This document shows, one piece after another, positions 1,143-43,170 of a DNA stretch of 52,671 nt; position 1 is the first letter of the stretch, and every line of letters starts with the position of its first letter. The stretch lies in NCBI GenBank assembly GCA_015065725.1, contig SVPV01000014.1, positions 1-52,671 on the forward strand, given 5' to 3'. The notes under the pieces were generated by a model. The model saw nothing but the letters and a program-made list of their open reading frames with translations, was not told the DNA's origin and ran no database searches. This DNA is from Oscillospiraceae bacterium (GTDB taxonomy: Bacteria > Bacillota > Clostridia > Oscillospirales > Acutalibacteraceae). The position numbers were made by a program, and so were the translations under genes.

Positions 1143-1209
1143 ACAACCATAAAAGGAAGCTACGGCTTCAAAAATCAAAAAGCCTTAAAGGCAAAAGGAG
1201 AAAATTAAA

Positions 1210-2007
1210 ATGAAAAAGTTATTAGCATTAGTAATGGCCGTTCTTATGATGGCAACAATCTTTGCAGGCTGCGGTGATAAAGCCGAGAAAATGATTGTTG
1301 TTGCAGAGAAAGAGTCTGCAGGTGAAGAAGTTGCTCAAAAAGAAGCAGATTTTGAGGATTACAAATACACCGCCGTTGACACTCAAAGCAAGGCTTTGAC
1401 CGAGGTTAAGTCAGGCACAGCTGACGCAGCTGTTGTTGACTATGTTATGTCCATAGGTTCTATTGGTGAAGGTACAGACTATGCTGACCTTGTAGTTGAG
1501 GGTGACGGATATTCTGAAGAGGAATATGGTATTGCTTTCAGAAAGGGTTCTGACCTTACAGCAAAGATAAACGAAATCATTAGAGAACTAAAAGCTGATG
1601 GTACTTTAAAGACAGTTGCTGAAAAATATAAACTTCAAGACATTCTTTTAGGTGACAAAGAAACAGATGCATTTGTTCAAAGCGAGACTGATTCCGACTA
1701 TAAATATGTAATGGATAAAGGCGAGCTTGTAATAGGTATTACATACTTTGCACCAATGAACTATGAAAATGAAGACGGTGAATTGGTAGGCTTTGAAACC
1801 GAGTTCGCAAAGGCTGTTTGTGCAAAACTTGGTGTAAACGCTAAATTCCAAGAAATCAGTTGGGCTGCAAAGGAAACCGAACTTGAAGCAAAAAATATTG
1901 ACTGCATTTGGAACGGTATGACTATTACAGAGAAAAGAGAAGAAAATATGAGCGTTTCTATTCCTTATATGCAGAATAAGCAAGTTAAAGTTGTAAAGTC
2001 TAAATAA
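1210..2007 (+). CDS. Amino-acid ABC transporter substrate-binding lipoprotein with circularly permuted lobes
   Basis: A lipoprotein signal peptide ends at Cys21 (FAGCGDK), so the protein is anchored outside the membrane. It belongs to the polar amino-acid binding (SBP_bac_3) family, but the order is unusual. Residues 28-147 match what is normally the second half: IVVAEKESAGEE, then VDTQSKALTEVKSGTADAAV with Asp77, then YGIAFRKG and ELKADGTLKTVAEKY. Residues 170-265 match what is normally the first half: GELVIGITYFAPMNYE, DGELVGFETEFAKAV and NGMTITEKREEN with Arg243. In ordinary members the Arg that holds the substrate carboxylate precedes the Asp that holds the amino group; here the order is reversed. 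A linker of about 22 residues (148-169) joins the two parts. Both ligand contacts appear to be kept, so I expect a functional binder. First gene of a four-gene operon ending with a TrpR-like gene, so tryptophan or a related amino acid is the inferred substrate. Confidence 0.88.
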   Translation: MKKLLALVMAVLMMATIFAGCGDKAEKMIVVAEKESAGEEVAQKEADFEDYKYTAVDTQSKALTEVKSGTADAAVVDYVMSIGSIGEGTDYADLVVEGDGYSEEEYGIAFRKGSDLTAKINEIIRELKADGTLKTVAEKYKLQDILLGDKETDAFVQSETDSDYKYVMDKGELVIGITYFAPMNYENEDGELVGFETEFAKAVCAKLGVNAKFQEISWAAKETELEAKNIDCIWNGMTITEKREENMSVSIPYMQNKQVKVVKSK

Positions 2008-2030: not shown

Positions 2031-2675
2031 ATGTCTTTTCAGCAGGTTACATTAGACCTTGCTGCGGGATTTTTAGAAAATTGCAGGCTGTTTTTTGAAA
2101 CCCTGCTTTTTTCTATTCCGTTGGGTTTAATAATATGTTTTTGCTCAATGTCAAAGTTTAAACCGTTGAGCTTTTTAAGTAAAATATTTGTCTGGTGCAT
2201 AAGGGGAACACCCCTTATGCTTCAGCTGTTTGTTGTAATGTATGTTCCGGGACTTGTGTTTGGCATACCAATGCGAAACAGAATGCTTGCCGCACTTATT
2301 GCTTTTATAATTAACTATGCATGCTATTTCTCTGAAATATATAGGGGCGGAATTGAAAGCATTTCTAAAGGACAGTATGAGGCAGGACAAGTGTTAGGTC
2401 TTACTAAATGGCAGATTTTTACTAAAATCGTGCTTTTGCAGGTAATCAAAAGAATAGTTCCTCCAATGTCAAACGAGATTATTACGCTTGTTAAGGATAC
2501 CTCTTTAGCACGTGTAATAGCAGTTGCCGAGATTTTACTTGCCGCCGAAAGATTTGCAGGTAAGGGCCTTATATGGCCGTTATTCTACACAGGTGCATAT
2601 TTCCTTATTTTCTGTGGTGTATTGACGGTTCTTTTTGGTTGGGTAGAAAAGAAAATGAATTATTTTAAAGGATAA
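2031..2675 (+). CDS. Amino-acid ABC transporter permease (HisM/GlnP type)
   Basis: A 214-residue inner-membrane subunit of a polar amino-acid importer. It has about five hydrophobic helices, the family segment [14 protein letters not shown] (about residues 53-66), [10 protein letters not shown] (101-110), and the EAA loop [15 protein letters not shown] (about 116-130) that contacts the ATPase. It lies 23 bases after the binding protein and 5 bases before the ATPase, so the three form one importer. Length is normal for a single permease that would work as a homodimer, since no second permease gene is present. The substrate cannot be read from the sequence; the operon context suggests tryptophan. 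Confidence 0.93.
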
Positions 2676-2680
2676 ATAAT

Positions 2681-3433
2681 ATGGCTGTATTAGAAATTAG
2701 AGATATAAAAAAGAGCTTTGGTAATACCGAGGTTTTAAAAGGCATCAGCTTTTCTGTCGAAAAGGGTGAGGTTGTAGCCATAATCGGCTCTTCGGGAAGC
2801 GGTAAAACTACATTACTTCGTTGTTTGAACTTTTTAGAAAGACCTGATAACGGCAGCTTTTTGTTTAACGGTGAAGAAATTTTTGCCGCTGATAAAAAGT
2901 ACAGCGATGATGAAATAAGGCAAAAAAGACTTCACTTTGGTTTGGTTTTTCAGTCATTTAATTTGTTTCCGCAATATAATGTGTTAAAGAATGTAATGTT
3001 ATCTCCAACTCTTTTAAAACTCGGCACACAGCAAGAGATTGAAGATAATGCTCATCGTCTTATAAAAAGGGTTGGATTAACCGAAAAAATAAACAACTAC
3101 CCTTGTGAACTGTCGGGCGGTCAGCAGCAGCGTGTAGCTATTGCAAGGGCTTTGGCACTTGAACCCGATATTCTTTGCTTTGATGAGCCTACTTCTGCAC
3201 TTGACCCCGAGCTTACGGGTGAGGTTTTAAAGGTTATTAAAAGTCTTAAAAGCGGCGACAGCACTATGATAGTAGTAACACATGAAATGGATTTTGCCAA
3301 AAATGTTGCCGATAAGGTTATATTTATGGCAGACGGAGTAATTGAAGAAATGGGTACTCCCGAAGATGTGTTTAATAATCCAAAGTCCGAGAAAACCCGT
3401 TCGTTTTTAAATAAATCATTGGAAGTGATATAA
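2681..3433 (+). CDS. Amino-acid ABC transporter ATP-binding protein (GlnQ/HisP type)
   Basis: A complete ABC ATPase of 250 residues that powers the importer encoded just upstream. Walker A is GSSGSGKT (36-43), the Q-loop is in [11 protein letters not shown], the signature is [15 protein letters not shown] (about 143-157), Walker B is [13 protein letters not shown], and the switch His is in VVTHEMDFA. The typical family features (NFLERPDNG and NVMLSPTLL) are present. One base separates its stop from the following YerC-like gene, which indicates translational coupling. Confidence 0.95.
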
Positions 3434-3434
3434 A

Positions 3435-3722
3435 ATGTCGGGTGACAAAAAGATAACAGAAGATATGATAAATGAGCTTTATGATTTAATACTCTCTCTT
3501 GAAAGCCGAGAGGATTGTGCAAAGCTTTTTGATGATTTATGTACCTTTAAGGAGATAGAAAAGATGGCACAGCGTGTGCGTGCTGCAAAGCTTTTGCTTG
3601 AGGGTGCTACCTATAGTAAAATTATCGAACAAACAGATATTTCATCAGCAACCTTAAGCCGAGTTTCACGCTGTGTACAGTATAGTGACGGATATAAAAC
3701 TTTTTTAAAGAAAGATAAATAA
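3435..3722 (+). CDS. YerC/YecD-type TrpR-related DNA-binding protein
   Basis: A 95-residue helical protein of the YerC/YecD family, related to the Trp repressor. The helix-turn-helix region is RVRAAKLLLEGATYSKIIEQ followed by TDISSATLSRVSRC, about residues 47-77. Members are small cytoplasmic DNA-binding proteins; most have no proven ligand. It is the last gene of the transporter operon, one base after the ATPase stop, and is directly followed by the promoter of a tryptophan-type T-box and trpB. I infer that it regulates the transporter operon, trpB, or both in response to an amino acid. The Trp-binding residues of enterobacterial TrpR cannot be confirmed by eye. Confidence 0.85.
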   Translation: MSGDKKITEDMINELYDLILSLESREDCAKLFDDLCTFKEIEKMAQRVRAAKLLLEGATYSKIIEQTDISSATLSRVSRCVQYSDGYKTFLKKDK

Positions 3723-3725
3723 TTG

Positions 3726-3754
3726 TTGACACTAAAATAGTTGTGTGCTAAAAT
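3726..3754 (+). promoter_or_regulatory. Sigma-A promoter of the T-box/trpB unit
   Basis: Consensus TTGACA (3726-3731) and TAAAAT (3749-3754) are 17 bp apart and start four bases after the YerC stop codon. The transcript would begin at about 3761 with the T-box leader. Confidence 0.8.
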
Positions 3755-3761
3755 ACAGAAA

Positions 3762-4030
3762 AAGATAAACCTGTGATTAAGAGTAGTAACGTTGTATTGA
3801 GGTTTTTAGCGAGTTGCCGACGGTGGAAGGGCAACAACGGATTATTTCGTGAATGGACTTATGAGGGCGGCCGAAAGCGTTTGTGAGTAGTAGCCGACGG
3901 GAAGCGTAGCCCGTTATAAATACGTACCGTATGTCAGTACGGGCAGAGTGGGTATTATTTACCAATTTGGGTGGTACCGCAGGATTTTTACAGTCTTGTC
4001 CCTTAAAAATTAAGGGATAGGACTTTTGTT
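3762..4030 (+). ncRNA. T-box leader, predicted tryptophan (UGG) specifier
   Basis: A classic T-box element. The invariant antiterminator sequence TTGGGTGGTACCGC is at 3967-3980. The terminator stem is 3993-4006 with 4010-4023, followed by a T-run. In stem I, TAAG (about 3778-3781) pairs with CTTA (3858-3861) to close a specifier loop with an AGTAGTAACG side and a GTGAATGGA side. The codon at 3854-3856 is UGG followed by A, as expected for tryptophan. Uncharged tRNA-Trp should therefore switch on the downstream trpB. The specifier choice is by eye from the loop position; the T-box identity itself is certain. Confidence 0.93.
3993..4030 (+). terminator. T-box attenuator terminator
   Basis: A 14-bp stem including G-U pairs (3993-4006 with 4010-4023), an AAA loop and a T-rich tail at 4024-4034. 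It is the off-state partner of the TGGGTGGTACCGC antiterminator. Confidence 0.9.
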
Positions 4031-4046
4031 TTTTGGAGGAAATTCT

Positions 4047-4082
4047 ATGTTCTTGCTAACTAAACGATGGTGTAAAAAATAA
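4047..4082 (+). CDS. Possible 11-residue leader peptide with one Trp codon
   Basis: Directly after the T-box terminator, GGAGGA (4035-4040) stands six bases before an ATG that opens the short frame MFLLTKRWCKK ending in TAA. The spacing is ideal and the peptide contains a Trp codon, in a leader that precedes trpB. The following 47 bases hold only a weak AT-rich hairpin before the trpB ribosome binding site. This may be a second, translation-based control step, or only a decoy initiation site. There is no direct evidence that it is translated. Confidence 0.45.
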   Translation: MFLLTKRWCKK

Positions 4083-4129
4083 ATCTTAAAATCCGATTTT
4101 TTTAAATATATTTTTTGGAGGAGTTTTAT

Positions 4130-5350
4130 ATGAAACTTAATAATGTTGATTTTGATACCTATTTTAATAATTATCCTAATAAAGAGGGTTACTTTGGCAA
4201 ATACGGCGGCGTTTTTGTTGAGGATAAGCTTAAAAATGCTATGGCAGAGATTACAGAGGCATATTTTTCTATATGTCAGTCAAGAAAATTTATTGCCGAG
4301 CTTCGCCGTATTAGAAAGGAATTTCAGGGCAGACCCACCCCCGTTACACACCTTGAAAGACTTTCCGATTCACTAGGCGGTAAGGTACAGCTTTATGCTA
4401 AACGTGAGGATTTAAACCATTCGGGTGCTCATAAGCTTAATCACTGTATGGGTGAGGCTTTGCTTGCAAAGTATATGGGTAAAAAGAAGGTTATCGCTGA
4501 AACAGGTGCCGGTCAGCACGGCGTGGCTTTGGCTACTGCTGCGGCATATTTCGGACTCGAATGTGATATTTATATGGGTTCTGTTGATATAAAGAAGCAG
4601 GCTCCAAATGTTGCAAGAATGAAAATTTTAGGTGCAAATGTTGTTGAAGTAACTCACGGTCTTCAAACGCTTAAGGAGGCAGTTGATGCCGCTTTTGAGG
4701 CATACAGCAAGGAATATAATGATGCTATTTATTGCATAGGCTCTGTTTTAGGACCGCATCCGTTTCCAATGATGGTGCGTGATTTCCAGAGTGTTGTGGG
4801 TATTGAAGCACGCGAACAGTTTATTGAAATGACAGGTCATTTACCGAGCTCTATAGTAGCCTGTGTAGGCGGCGGCTCAAATGCGGCAGGTCTTTTTGCA
4901 GGCTTTCTTAATGACCCTGTTGATATTTACGGCATTGAGCCTTTGGGCAGAGGTGAAAAGCTTGGCGACCACGCCGCTAGTCTTAAATATGGTACCGAGG
5001 GTGTTATGCACGGCTTTAACAGCATAATGCTAAAAGACGAAAACGGTGAGCCCGCACCCGTTTATTCGGTTGCAAGCGGTCTTGACTATCCGTCTTCGGG
5101 TCCCGAGCATGCATTTTTACAGGAAATCGGCAGAGTTAAGTATGACGTTATAAACGACGACGAAACTATAGACGCCTTCTTCAAGCTTGCTCGTTTAGAG
5201 GGCATAATCCCCGCTATTGAAAGCTCACATGCAGTAGCTTACGGTATGAAGCTTGCAAAGACAATGGACCACGGCTCAATTCTTATCAACCTTTCAGGCA
5301 GAGGCGATAAGGATATGGACTTTATAATTGAAAATTACGGTATTAGATAA
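4130..5350 (+). CDS. trpB: Tryptophan synthase beta chain (no alpha chain nearby)
   Basis: A 406-residue PLP enzyme that joins indole and serine to make tryptophan. The PLP lysine is Lys102 in [42 protein letters not shown], the phosphate-binding [12 protein letters not shown] and the C-terminal LSGRGDKD are all kept. The start is the ATG at 4130, with GGAGGAG at 4117-4123; a longer TTG start would lie inside the ribosome binding site. It differs from common TrpB1 in details, such as [15 protein letters not shown] and [14 protein letters not shown]. No trpA or other trp gene is in the window, so it probably uses free indole taken up or released by other gut bacteria. Controlled by the Trp T-box upstream. 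Confidence 0.93.
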
Positions 5351-5376
5351 TTAAAAATAATTTGGTTAAAACAATT

Positions 5377-5402
5377 GTGTGACGGAAAATTTTCCGTCAC
5401 AC
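5377..5402. terminator. 26-bp perfect palindrome between trpB and the amidohydrolase
   Basis: GTGTGACGGAAAA and its exact reverse complement abut with no spacer. A hairpin would lose its central A/T pairs in the loop but keep a GC-rich stem. The tail is not T-rich on the plus strand, so it is either an inefficient terminator or a protein-binding operator. Confidence 0.5.
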
Positions 5403-5424
5403 TAAAAATTTAGAGGCGATAATA

Positions 5425-6219
5425 ATGGTGATTGATTTTCATACACATGCTTTCCCTGACCAAATAGCCGAAAGGGCAATAGCAGGACTGGTTCAAAAAA
5501 GCGGCGGTATGTTTCCGCCCTGCTCAAACGGAACGCTTGGCGGTCTCGTTAGCAATATGGATGATTTCGGTGTAGATATTTCTGTGGTACAACCCGTAAT
5601 AACAAAGGCTTCACAGCTTAAAACTTTAAATGAATGGGCAAAGGGAATAGAAGGCCAGAGAATAATATCCTTTGGCGGAATTTATCCACATACCGACGAT
5701 TATAAACGCGATATTGATTTTGTAGTATCTTTAGGGCTTAAGGGTTTAAAATTTCATCCTGAATATCAAGACTTTTTGCTTGATGATGAAAAAATGCTGC
5801 CCATTTATGATTACGCCTTAAATAAAGGTTTAATATTACTTTTTCACGCAGGGTTTGACCCCGCATTTGAAGCACCTTACCGCAGTAATCCTAAAGCTTT
5901 TAAAAATATTTCAAAAAAGCTTGGCGGCGGCACTATAATTGCGGCACATTTAGGCGGCGGACGCCAATGGGACGAGGTTTTAGAGCATCTTTGCGGAACT
6001 GACGTTTATCTTGATACCTCAATGGGCTTTAAGTATTACGGGAAAGAGCAGTTTTTAAAGATTTTAAAGGCACACGGTGCCGATAAAATACTTTTTGGTT
6101 CCGACTCACCTTGGAGCCGTGCCGACGAGGAGATAGAGATATTTAACTCTCTGCCTATAACCGACGAGGAAAAGGAAAAAATACTGTCGGGCAACGCAAA
6201 ACGCCTTTTAAATATATAG
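5425..6219 (+). CDS. Amidohydrolase-family metal-dependent TIM-barrel enzyme
   Basis: A 264-residue protein of the amidohydrolase 2 (ACMSD-like) family. The metal-binding HTH motif is DFHTHAFPD (4-12), followed by GLKGLKFHPEYQDF (about 109-122), LLFHAGFDP, IIAAHLGGGRQWDE and ILFGSDSPWS. These are the conserved His and Asp positions of the barrel. Family members catalyse hydrolysis or decarboxylation of varied substrates, so none can be named. The ATG at 5425 follows a modest GAGGCG site. It shares orientation with trpB and could be read through from it, but the intervening palindrome may separate the two. A link to tryptophan metabolism is speculative. Confidence 0.85.
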   Translation: MVIDFHTHAFPDQIAERAIAGLVQKSGGMFPPCSNGTLGGLVSNMDDFGVDISVVQPVITKASQLKTLNEWAKGIEGQRIISFGGIYPHTDDYKRDIDFVVSLGLKGLKFHPEYQDFLLDDEKMLPIYDYALNKGLILLFHAGFDPAFEAPYRSNPKAFKNISKKLGGGTIIAAHLGGGRQWDEVLEHLCGTDVYLDTSMGFKYYGKEQFLKILKAHGADKILFGSDSPWSRADEEIEIFNSLPITDEEKEKILSGNAKRLLNI

Positions 6220-6585: not shown

Positions 6586-8976
6586 TTATTTTCTTAAAAT
6601 TCCACCTGCGGCTTCAAGTTTTTTAATAATACGCTCGCTTACTTCTTCAATTTGTGCATCGGTAAGGGTTGCATCGGCAGAACGGAACCAAACGCTAAAG
6701 GCCACGCTCTTTTTACCCTCGGGTATTTGTGAGCCTGTATAAACGTCGAAAAGCTCAACCTTTTCAAGCAATCTGCTGCCGCCGCTTATAATTGCTTTTT
6801 CGAGTGCACCCACGGGTGTATCGATATCGCAAAGCATAGCAAAGTCACGCTCAACAGCAGGGAATTTAGGCAACGGCTTATAAACGGTTTTACGCTTTTT
6901 TATATTATAAAGCACATCAAGCTTAACCTCTGCAACATAAACCTTTGTTTCAAGCTCAAAGTTAGCGGCTACAGTTGGGTGAACCTCACCGAATACAGCG
7001 GCTTCTACATTATTTGCAAGCACTACTGCCTGTCTGCCTGGATGCAAATAAGGCTCAGCAGAACGCTTATACTCGGTATGTGCACCAAATAACTTCATCA
7101 CGTCTTCTATTATACCCTTTAATGTAAAGAAATCCTCATCCTTGCCGTAAATACCTATAGACATTGTCGGTAATTCGTCGGGTTGCTCGGTAACTGGAAG
7201 TGATTTTGGTATAAAACGCTTGCTTATTTCAAAGAATCTGCCGTCAGCAATCTTGCGGTTGGCGTTAGTGGCTAATACGGTTAGCATACTGGTTGTCAAC
7301 TGTGTACGCATTGTAGAATACTCGTCGCCTAACGGATTTAAAAGCTTTACGGCATTTCTTCTCTCGTCATTCTCGTCAAGAAGTAAAGCATCAATAGCCT
7401 TTGAGCCTATGAATGAATAGGTTGCTATTTCATAAGCACCAAGTCCGTTAAGCAGTGCTTTAAGCTTATCTGCCTTAATTCTTTCGGGTAGCTTTGTGCC
7501 GCGAGCTACATTTCCACGCATAGCGGTGCCTACAATGTGGTCATAGCCGTAAATACGCATAATTTCTTCTGCAAGGTCGGCTCTGCCCTCAATATCATCA
7601 CGAATTGACGGTACTTTACAGGTAATAACACCGTCCTTTATAGTGGTGGGCAGCTGCAAACTGTTTAAAATAGAAACCATTGTTTCTTCGGGAACTTCTA
7701 CACCTATTAAGTCGGTAATGCTCTTTGCGGTAACGGTTAAAACTCTCTCTTCGGGCAAGCTTTCATACTTATCGAGTGTGCCGTCAATAATATCACCTGC
7801 ATCAAGCTCATATATAAGACCTAATGCTCTTTCCATTGCAAACTCTACATTTAAAATGTCTGTGCCTTTTTCAAATCTACCGCTAGCCTCGGTACGAATA
7901 CCTAAAGCTCTGCCTGTGTGACGTACATTGTCGCGGCGGAATTTAGCTGATTCTAGGAAAAGATTTTTTGTGTCCTCCTCAATCTCACTTTCCTTGCCGC
8001 CCATAATACCTGCAAGACAGGAGGGCTTTTCACCGTCGGCAATTACAAGCATATCAGGGTTGAGTTTATACTCCTTGCCGTCAAGGGTCATAATACTCTC
8101 GCCATCTCTAGCGTTTCTTACAATAATCTGCTTGTTTGCCAAATCGTCATAATTAAAGGCGTGCATAGGCTGACCTGTTTCAAGCATAACAAAGTTTGTT
8201 ATATCAACAATATTGTTAATCGGTCGCATACCAGATTTGGTTAATGCCTTTTGCATCCAAACAGGCGATTCTTTAATACGGAGATTTTTAACTATTCTTC
8301 CCATATAACGCGGGCAAAGGTCATAATTTTCAACCTTTAAATCAATATAGTCGGTAATGCTTTCGCCAACTGTTTTATAAGAGGGAACAGGTGCATTATA
8401 TTTTGTGCCAAGCACTACGCCGATTTCCTTTGCAACGCCCAAAAAGCAATTACAGTCGGGGCGGTTTGCGGTGATTTTAAAATCTATAATATAGTCGTCA
8501 AGTCCTAAAACCTCACGCATATCGGTGCCGACCAAAACGTCGGGCTTTAAAATTAAAATTCCGTTAACCGATGCACCCTCATAGTCGGCTTCTGTAAGGC
8601 ACAACTCTTCGCCCGAGCATAGCATACCGTTAGAGTCAACACCGCGAAGCTTGCCTGCTACAATGTGTGCACCGTTTGGAAGATAGCTATCGTTAAGTGC
8701 GGCGGGAACAATGTCGCCAACGCTTATATTCTGGGCACCTGTAACGATTTGTATTGGCTCACCTTTACCTATATCCATTTGGCAAATCTGCAAGTGGTCG
8801 CTGTTCTCGTGGGGGGCTAAGTCTACGATTTTTGCGGCAACAACATTAACAATGTTTTCACCCTCGGCTTCAATGCTTTCTACCTCAAAGCCTGCAAGCA
8901 CCATACGCTCGCACAATTCCTCAACAGGTACATTTATATCTACATAATTTTTAAGCTGATTTAATGATATTTTCAT
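6586..8976 (-). CDS. pheT: Phenylalanyl-tRNA synthetase beta subunit
   Basis: A full-length 796-residue beta chain of the alpha2-beta2 enzyme that charges tRNA-Phe. The order of domains is the N-terminal tRNA-binding OB fold (about 40-150, with AAKIVDLAPHENSDHLQICQ), the B3/B4 editing domain (about 200-390, KITANRPDCNCFLGVAKEI), the B5 domain (about 400-470), the catalytic-like core with PLGDEYSTMRT, and the C-terminal anticodon-binding FDX-ACB domain (about 700-795, PKFPAVERDFAML). The start ATG has GGAGGAATTTTA upstream and lies 14 bases after pheS, so the two are co-transcribed under the Phe T-box. Confidence 0.97.
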   Translation of the reverse strand: MKISLNQLKNYVDINVPVEELCERMVLAGFEVESIEAEGENIVNVVAAKIVDLAPHENSDHLQICQMDIGKGEPIQIVTGAQNISVGDIVPAALNDSYLPNGAHIVAGKLRGVDSNGMLCSGEELCLTEADYEGASVNGILILKPDVLVGTDMREVLGLDDYIIDFKITANRPDCNCFLGVAKEIGVVLGTKYNAPVPSYKTVGESITDYIDLKVENYDLCPRYMGRIVKNLRIKESPVWMQKALTKSGMRPINNIVDITNFVMLETGQPMHAFNYDDLANKQIIVRNARDGESIMTLDGKEYKLNPDMLVIADGEKPSCLAGIMGGKESEIEEDTKNLFLESAKFRRDNVRHTGRALGIRTEASGRFEKGTDILNVEFAMERALGLIYELDAGDIIDGTLDKYESLPEERVLTVTAKSITDLIGVEVPEETMVSILNSLQLPTTIKDGVITCKVPSIRDDIEGRADLAEEIMRIYGYDHIVGTAMRGNVARGTKLPERIKADKLKALLNGLGAYEIATYSFIGSKAIDALLLDENDERRNAVKLLNPLGDEYSTMRTQLTTSMLTVLATNANRKIADGRFFEISKRFIPKSLPVTEQPDELPTMSIGIYGKDEDFFTLKGIIEDVMKLFGAHTEYKRSAEPYLHPGRQAVVLANNVEAAVFGEVHPTVAANFELETKVYVAEVKLDVLYNIKKRKTVYKPLPKFPAVERDFAMLCDIDTPVGALEKAIISGGSRLLEKVELFDVYTGSQIPEGKKSVAFSVWFRSADATLTDAQIEEVSERIIKKLEAAGGILRK

Positions 8977-10070: not shown

Positions 10071-10322
10071 CTCCGTCCCTTAAAAAAGGGACGAAGCATA
10101 AAAAACACTCCGCGGTACCACCCAAATTTTCGCTCAAAGAGCAAACACTCTTGCGGCATATAACGGTGCCTGCCGTCAACCTCTACACCCACAAGAGCGG
10201 TTTCAAGGTTGCTGCTCGGAAGTGAACTTCAAGAAATCTGCCTACTTAAACCGCTTCCAGCCAAGGCGGTTACTCTCTTTAAAGGGCAAAAGACTCTACT
10301 TTTCTTCGTCAAAGCATTATGT
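10071..10322 (-). ncRNA. T-box leader of pheST, phenylalanine (UUC) specifier
   Basis: Reading the minus strand, the conserved TTTGGGTGGTACCGCGG lies at about 10111-10128. It is followed by the terminator stem GTCCCTT/AAGGGAC (10071-10094) and a T-run. In stem I, the loop GAAGTTCACTTC places UUC followed by A at 10226-10224, a Phe codon that agrees with the downstream genes. Uncharged tRNA-Phe should stabilise the antiterminator and raise pheST expression. The leader runs from about 10322. Confidence 0.95.
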
Positions 10323-42917: not shown

Positions 42918-42928
42918 ATTTTAAACTT

Positions 42929-43170
42929 GATAGAGGTGCGGTTTGTAATTAGTAGCACGGTGCGATAAAGTCCGGCGGGGCGATGCAGGGTGTGAAAGGT
43001 ACAGTCGCCGAAGTTTATCCAAGGCATTGGGTATGCTGGGGGAACGGAATAATATCCGTTTCACTGTCGCATTTTTGCGGAGTGCTATCAAAACCGGAAA
43101 GATATTAGGGCAATAGTATGTGTATTGCCGTTTTCTGATTTTGGTAGCCGATTTCTATCGGCTATTTTTT
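42929..43170 (+). ncRNA. Lysine riboswitch (L box)
   Basis: The aptamer spans 42929-43089. P1 pairs GATAG (42929-42933) with CTATC (43085-43089), and the core has GAGGTGCG, AGTAGCAC, GTGAAAGG, GTCGCCGAAG and GCGGAGTG, which match the lysine family in order. The expression platform is readable: GCTATCAAAA (43084-43093) can pair with TTTTGGTAGC (43139-43148) as an antiterminator, which excludes the terminator stem at 43145-43164. Lysine binding would hold P1 and free the terminator, so dapA and lysA are turned off by lysine. Another hairpin (GGCAATA/TATTGCC) lies between them. Confidence 0.96.
43145..43170 (+). terminator. Riboswitch-controlled terminator
   Basis: TAGCCGAT (43145-43152) with ATCGGCTA (43157-43164), a TTCT loop and six T. 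Its 5' arm overlaps the antiterminator described for the riboswitch. Confidence 0.92.

Follow-up and report, generated by a model that had tools for sequence, protein, structure and literature searches.

A 52,671-nucleotide stretch of DNA from an Oscillospiraceae bacterium (contig SVPV01000014.1), which we refer to as the window, carries near its start a gene for a predicted amino-acid-binding lipoprotein whose two lobes appear to be written in the wrong order. Can a binding protein be rearranged in this way and still serve its importer, and if so, how did the rearrangement come about? In type II binding proteins, the chain runs from the front of lobe 1 (N1) into lobe 2 (L2), and a C-terminal segment (C1) returns to lobe 1. 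The canonical order is thus N1-L2-C1, while the window protein reads L2-C1-N1. Natural circular permutations are mostly encountered as isolated, ancient events that separate remote relatives, and their path and effect can no longer be read. In the following, we describe the window protein, its operon and its relatives, and discuss how often and by which route such rotations may have arisen. We consider it very probable that the gene encodes a naturally permuted family-3 solute-binding protein (SBP) with a predicted normal two-lobed clamp, which likely delivers an amino acid to the adjoining permease and ATPase.

Results

A family-3 binding protein in rotated order

The gene is intact and free of in-frame stops, and its product is a predicted lipoprotein of 265 residues (Table 1). 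By profile it is a family-3 SBP: the Pfam model SBP_bac_3 matches with 110.6 bits against a cut-off of 26.4, its two aligned parts appearing in swapped order, such that profile positions 2-92 align to the C-terminal residues 174-264. Residue-by-residue alignments with the three best PDB matches, AncQR (4zv1), Tv2483 (6det) and 6svf have the same swap, the N-terminal part of all three falling on residues 160-263 and their later part on residues 29-140; among the best 60 matches per query, which mostly cover the best stretch only, no PDB chain matched the rotated order along its length. We also scored every rotation of the mature chain by local alignment against canonical relatives. The score against L064 rises from 405 as written to 764 when the chain is rotated to residue 162, with 154 of 240 columns identical, and those against L009, L010 and L011 rise from 407 to 751, 394 to 708 and 348 to 674; even for L002, a distant canonical paralogue from the same genome, the score climbs from 109 to 187. 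Relatives sharing the order, which the initial annotation had proposed to look for, were found as well: the best 120 of 7992 homologues, query included, are L2-C1-N1 without exception (120/120), and the order is therefore due neither to chance nor to a local assembly error. As judged from these comparisons, the window protein is to be filed as a circularly permuted derivative of SBP_bac_3.

Table 1. Features of the window discussed in the text (all positions refer to the window)
Feature	Position (strand)	Basis or remark
Likely ribosome-binding site	1195..1201 (+)	AAAGGAG-like, 5' of ATG; read in sequence, putative role
Complete binding-protein gene	1210..2007 (+)	265 residues
Signal peptide and lipobox, residues 1-21	1210..1272 (+)	last residue is the predicted lipidated Cys21
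Tether, residues 22-27	1273..1290 (+)	lipobox pattern
Lobe 2 (L2), residues 28-98	1291..1503 (+)	segment HMM 100 bits; contains Asp77 (1438-1440)
Lobe-1 return segment (C1), residues 99-147	1504..1650 (+)	segment HMM 84 bits; C-terminal in canonical proteins
Linker, residues 148-164	1651..1701 (+)	old C-terminus to old mature N-terminus
Lobe-1 front (N1), residues 165-265	1702..2004 (+)	segment HMM 157 bits; contains Arg243 (1936-1938); ends at hinge 1
Permease, BPD_transp_1, polar amino acid type	2031..2675 (+)	profile matches (PF00528/TIGR01726)
ABC ATPase	2681..3433 (+)	PF00005; nearest NCBIfam models TcyN and GlnQ, both below cut-off
YerC/YecD TrpR-related regulator	3435..3722 (+)	TIGR02531, 91.3 bits (cut-off 42.2); likely co-transcribed, by adjacency
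T-box leader	3764..4006 (+)	between importer operon and trpB
trpB	4130..5350
pheT-like gene	6586..8976	by eye
Second T-box leader	10084..10321 (-)	upstream of the pheT-like gene
Lysine riboswitch	42923..43095 (+)	89.5 bits

The initial annotation had recognized the swapped halves, which the rotation scan, Pfam and the PDB alignments bear out, and had assigned residues 28-147 to lobe 2. This boundary had to be moved. With profiles built separately for N1, L2 and C1 of the window protein, and likewise in the rotation scan, residues 99-147 align with the canonical C-terminal return segment; consequently, lobe 2 comprises residues 28-98 and lobe 1 residues 99-265, which places the cut at hinge 1. 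The stretch of about 15 residues that leads from N1 to L2 in canonical proteins is absent, and both termini occupy its place. The two residues singled out as ligand contacts, Asp77 in lobe 2 and Arg243 in lobe 1, presumably play the roles of their GlnH counterparts. Both are invariant in an alignment of 74 sequences, as is Cys21, at which the lipobox ends; beyond this alignment, Arg243 is not universal, its position being held by Cys in the relative L054 and the matching site by Val in L072, a protein of order C1-N1-L2.

Constraint and predicted structure

Relative to six same-genus proteins, dN is 0.05-0.22 in L2, C1 and N1, while dS exceeds 1 or is saturated. All three segments are under purifying selection; the linker is looser, with dN of up to 0.27 against the same six relatives. 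Given these values and the open frame, we reject a pseudogene.

An AlphaFold2 model computed from an alignment of 55 permuted sequences (pLDDT 91.8, pTM 0.82) predicts a two-lobed clamp as in canonical proteins. In this model, L2 runs into C1 along one long strand (residues 94-110), followed by helices at residues 116-129 and 132-139, and the last strand spans residues 254-263. The top Foldseek match places N1 on domain 1 of TmArgBP (6y16_A; 83 columns, rmsd 1.3, 34% identity), and VIA places residues 26-265 on bilobed proteins such as 8eyz_G (167 aligned residues, rmsd 2.8, 11% identity). Both programs align sequentially, and whole-chain matches to other binding proteins reach only about 10-15% identity, compared with about 34% over N1 alone, probably because the lobes are swapped within a pseudo-symmetric fold. 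A model of a C1-N1-L2 protein (pLDDT 90.8, pTM 0.77) superposes through its residues 102-273 on residues 1-174 of canonical TmArgBP (rmsd 2.6, 31% identity). The earlier view of a working rather than decayed gene thus agrees with the open frame, the low dN, the confident model and the 120 homologues of identical order.

The importer operon

The rotated gene opens a complete importer operon, in frame and with an intact signal peptide, as initially described: open reading frame, lipobox, permease and ATPase are all in place (Table 1). Only one permease gene was seen in this operon, and the permease is therefore likely a homodimer with a symmetric docking face. In all same-genus holders found (7/7), the rotated gene lies immediately 5' of a permease and an ATPase, and of the free-standing rotated genes that the fetched loci contain, 68 distinct ones in total, 63 precede a permease and an ATPase on their own strand. 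The five exceptions are two L021 genes with no permease match, one gene each in L111 and L203 (nothing matched in the latter), and one in L129, which lies 139 bases from the locus end. In L111 (7436-8245), a C1-N1-L2 protein is encoded 3' of the ATPase in an operon with a canonical SBP, so that both orders adjoin. The two L021 genes (3014-3820 and 4846-5649) lie a short distance apart, closely resemble each other and are strongly diverged from the family.

We compared the ATPase and yerC region of the window (2681-3722) with the loci L045, L192 and L215-L219. The window ATPase scores 469 bits against that of L045, a canonical operon from the same genus, and 397-412 bits against those of the six other same-genus rotated operons. 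A yerC gene is present in the canonical L045 operon and in five of these six rotated operons; L215 showed none. Possibly, SBP and permease were exchanged as a pair against a fixed ATPase-yerC end.

All cyclic orders occur among the relatives

In what follows, A denotes the window order L2-C1-N1, B the order C1-N1-L2, and Ax a cut further inside lobe 2. All three cyclic orders were found among the relatives, as was the additional cut within lobe 2. Among 201 distinct SBP ORFs from 219 loci, classified by segment scores, 131 are N1-L2-C1, 33 C1-N1-L2, 25 L2-C1-N1 and 12 otherwise arranged, counts that are not frequencies, since the loci were picked by similarity search. The 12 others comprise four with C1-N1 and no detected L2, three with L2-C1-N1 plus a terminal piece of L2, two repeat arrays and three odd cases.

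Searched with the window protein (E 1e-30), at least 24 of 345 genomes of the taxonomic order hold a rotated member; by segment profiles, five of these have the window order (own genome included), one the lobe-2 cut and 18 the order C1-N1-L2. The G156 entry among them is an ORF already classed as L069, and a 25th match spanning the join, in G129, proved canonical on inspection. Within the genus, 7 of the 39 genomes searched carry a window-type SBP. Across 348 genomes of the phylum, full-length rotated matches occur in the own genome and, outside the taxonomic order, in G433, G703, G391, G510 and G476; with the exception of G476, these outside matches were sorted by profile (4/5). A set made up of one order-B protein and the 119 homologues listed for it (P0121-P0240) contains 117 proteins of order C1-N1-L2, two with an extra C1, and P0194, which reads N1-L2-C1-N1.

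The cut sites differ between these proteins. L054, L056 and L057 retain the canonical post-hinge stretch at their N-terminus, and L058 retains part of it C-terminally; it is lost in eight of the nine window-group rows, and L059-L063 are cut deeper within lobe 2. In their source records, the listed rotated proteins bear plain substrate-binding names, namely transporter substrate-binding domain-containing protein, ABC-type amino acid transport substrate-binding protein or polar amino acid transport system substrate-binding protein, from which we gather that the rotation has been overlooked in annotation. Natural permutation had initially been described as rarely noted in this family; contrary to the impression this gives, rotation is widespread and apparently recurrent in the genomes and homologues searched.

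How often did the order change?

In a tree of 80 SBPs brought into a common register (15 A, 5 Ax, 8 B and 52 canonical), canonical and rotated proteins interleave and the order label changes eight times (8-8 over bootstraps); well-supported branches alone require at least three changes for A, two for B and two for Ax. If the canonical order is ancestral, the eight changes correspond to eight origins. The supported groups are the window group (9 rows, 100/97), L056 and L057 with canonical L010 (99/87, and 100/93 in the permease tree), L058 with L134 (99/94), L135 with L136, nested within a canonical clade (100/99), L059 with canonical L102 (98/86), L060-L063 (100/100), L069 with L072 (100/99), and L097 with five more (98/98).

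A tree of the permeases, available for the operons of 75 of the 80 proteins, has nine order changes (8-10), with two for A, two for B and one for Ax on well-supported branches alone. There, too, the orders interleave and L135 and L136 stand apart from the window group; unlike the SBP tree, it joins L134 to L054 and separates L069 from L072.

In approximately unbiased (AU) tests, for which the groups were named after the trees had been seen, a single clade of the 15 A rows (p 2.65e-65) or of the 20 A and Ax rows (p 4.14e-72) is rejected, as is a union of the window group with L135 and L136 (p 6.69e-16); the 13 A rows without L135 and L136 yield p 0.0158. Not rejected are a clade of the eight B rows (p 0.352) and unions of the window group with L058 and L134 (p 0.351) or with L056 and L057 (p 0.135). 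In a second, GlnH-like set of 23 rows, including three outgroup rows, A changes four times and B once, with p 0.0051 for A as one clade, p 0.0101 for all rotated rows as one clade and p 0.041 for L013-L017 with L016; the placement of L231 and L232 in this tree carries a long-branch warning. The two subfamilies stand apart in a quick tree.

A cautious count gives six origins as the floor, namely two of A and one each of Ax and B in one subfamily, and one each of A and B in the other; this floor partly presumes that different cut sites mark separate events and that the two subfamilies shared none. According to the best trees the count is eight, and the GlnH-like set adds about five. A broader reading, to which we give moderate confidence, is that the amino-acid-binding proteins of this phylum are permutation-prone: tandem fusion and trimming would have opened the chain in independent events at three sites (hinge 1, the surroundings of hinge 2 and the interior of lobe 2), no fewer than eight times in one subfamily and on several further occasions in the GlnH-like one, giving rise to every cyclic order while the importer kept working, and the rotation may tune tethering and clamp closing.

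A proposed route through fused tandem copies

The linker and its flanks resemble canonical C-termini (YKLQDYIVVE) and mature N-termini (SDKTDWDYIADKGE). At the join itself, YKLQDILLG takes the place of the canonical C-terminus and is followed by SDYKYVMDKGEL (compare the mature N-terminus TDWDYIADKGEM), with no signal peptide; such a junction of a canonical C-terminus with a mature N-terminus is what is expected of fused tandem copies. We propose that two tandem copies would have fused, the C-terminus of the first being joined to the mature N-terminus of the next, and that the outer lobe-1 front and the outer lobe-2 and return part would then have been lost. This process was likely repeated several times in the family, with hinge 1, the vicinity of hinge 2 and the interior of lobe 2 as cut sites. 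Duplication in tandem followed by loss of the outer halves had already been suggested initially; the linker and the fused tandem units fit the suggestion, which we retain as a proposed route.

Tandem canonical SBP genes are present in L049, L050 and L214, and rotated queries match the tandem-domain chain of GlnPQ (6h30) across its domain border. The L019 protein starts with L2-C1, contains four N1 units and closes with N1 ahead of a permease domain; the L020 protein is built likewise but is shorter. These arrays (L019:620-4291 and L020:1561-3804) are fused to the permease, and in L028 (1533-4259) the SBP is fused to the ATPase as well; in all three fused transporters, lobe 2 comes first and the lobe-1 front lies next to the permease, which is the rotated register.

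No clean genomic intermediate was found. Proteins of four to six segments do occur in metagenomes (23 of 119 new proteins in one set, plus P0194, P0123 and P0237), and some of them may be real genes; near-identical forms are found on separate contigs (P0244 and P0246, 383/385 identical; P0248 and P0251, 394/400). We do not count them as intermediates, since they form single-member clusters and three of them (P0275, P0303 and P0311) share one canonical front, each on different rotated parts. The mixture of canonical and rotated parts in P0123, P0194, P0237 and P0241-P0311 could reflect recombination between tandem paralogues, true fusions or chimeric assembly. A candidate tandem fusion in L213 was rejected, as the protein is SLH-like and carries a canonical binding domain. 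This locus encodes two adjacent SLH-like cell-wall proteins (809-2815 and 2888-4831; SLH matched in the first), both of which end in a canonical binding domain with a barely recognizable lobe 2.

Discussion

Alternative explanations

Three other accounts of these data deserve consideration. That the order is an artefact of assembly or gene calling, or that the gene is decayed, is hardly credible. The named holders are, admittedly, mostly metagenome-assembled, and the variants of four to six segments are possibly chimeric; against this stand the agreement of all 120 listed homologues, the occurrence of the order in 7 of 39 same-genus genomes, a rotated gene on the 2.55-Mb contig of G379, and a frame without stops in which every segment is constrained, and we reject decay and misassembly alike. 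It is also rather improbable that the rotated protein has lost the ability to bind free amino acids and, with its fold retained, now serves in sensing or as a structural lipoprotein. The substitutions of Arg243 in L054 and at the matching site of L072, as well as the TrpR-like regulator 3' of the ATPase, would suit such a role, but the predicted binding-site positions are under strong constraint and the gene directly precedes permease and ATPase in every same-genus holder found.

A third account would trace all proteins of this order to one old permutation and explain the nested canonical proteins as reversals or misplaced rows. The AU tests leave some room for it, since the window group may be united with L058 and L134 or with L056 and L057, and all order-B rows with one another. 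They firmly reject the larger clades that it calls for (15 A rows, 20 A and Ax rows, or the window group with L135 and L136), L056 and L057 sit beside canonical L010 in the SBP and the permease tree alike, and the groups differ in their cut sites. We therefore regard a single origin as very unlikely and prefer a working, permuted importer subunit that arose repeatedly.

Comparison with known systems

The closest relatives of the window protein are the canonical type II members of SBP_bac_3, such as TmArgBP, GlnH and AncQR, with which it shares the segments, the predicted fold, the binding residues and the SBP-permease-ATPase operon and, in the case of Gram-positive members, the lipoprotein signal. 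It differs from them in its order L2-C1-N1, in its termini at hinge 1, in presumably having one interlobe strand as its full connection and in its very short lobe-2 tether. GlnPQ SBD1-SBD2 (6h30) has the same join of a C-terminus to the front of the next domain as the window linker, but consists of two complete canonical domains, fused to the permease in the whole protein, with nothing trimmed.

The only natural permuted binding protein that we found in the literature searched, mostly without subscription papers, which is no proof of absence, is the glucose-binding lipoprotein TpMglB-2 (Tp0684) from Treponema pallidum, a permuted protein of type I fold that belongs to a likely ABC importer. 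According to the article (PMC4990184), it is cut inside the N lobe with a fourth crossover added and has one topology; Gram-positive bacteria of the gut contain relatives of it, and the authors put forward anchoring as a reason for the permutation. Both cases are natural circular permutations of a lipoprotein SBP from a likely ABC importer; compared with the sugar-binding type I protein described there, the window family is of type II, cut at the hinge, has a crossover removed and comes in three orders. With its family-3 sequence and hinge-1 cut, the window protein does not belong to the TpMglB-2-like 'type Ic' as defined in that article (PMC4990184). For PDZ domains, the CIRPIN preprint (PMC12667903) describes four natural rotations found by structure comparison. 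They resemble our case in that one fold has several natural rotations, whereas here the rotations occur within one sequence family, with canonical relatives about 64% identical and in shared operons. Structural papers (PMC9815098, PMC10601554) discuss halves permuted by design, as well as a swap of domains that relates the type I fold to type II. No report of natural rotation in amino-acid-binding proteins was found in the same, mostly subscription-free literature. Rotation as such is nothing new; what appears to be new is that a single family comes in several orders within the same operon context.

Expected effects of the rotation

The binding cleft, the outer surface and the permease-docking faces would be as in canonical proteins, and only the chain ends would move. 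After a cut at hinge 1, a single interlobe strand would be left as a full connection, and the lipid anchor would sit about six residues from lobe 2. The median tether, measured from the lipobox pattern, is 5.5 residues in 24 proteins of the window order, 19 in 121 canonical proteins and 12.5 in 32 proteins of order C1-N1-L2; these figures exclude 11 proteins that the pattern did not match, and in a few cases a negative length betrays a wrongly picked Cys. The lost hinge strand may tune clamp closing, and the rotation may be used for tethering; if so, rotation would be an evolutionary means to adjust both. Two questions thereby become accessible: how working intermediates carry a protein through a permutation, and what benefit or cost it brings a two-lobed clamp to have its anchor point and one of its two interlobe connections moved. 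Both are testable here, as canonical relatives about 64% identical, the same kind of operon and three orders are found in one phylum. Finally, rotated binding proteins could be natural starting scaffolds for sensors.

Regulatory elements in the window

A T-box leader lies between the importer operon and trpB. Its specifier loop, GAA-TGG-AC at 3851-3858, contains, as judged by the motif, a Trp codon. We did not adopt tryptophan as the substrate on the strength of this UGG T-box and yerC, as trpB sits behind its own leader. No ORF in the fetched loci, whose flanks are short, had the window trpB as its best match. The window contains two further elements: a second T-box leader, possibly a Phe T-box, upstream of the pheT-like gene, and a lysine riboswitch (Table 1).
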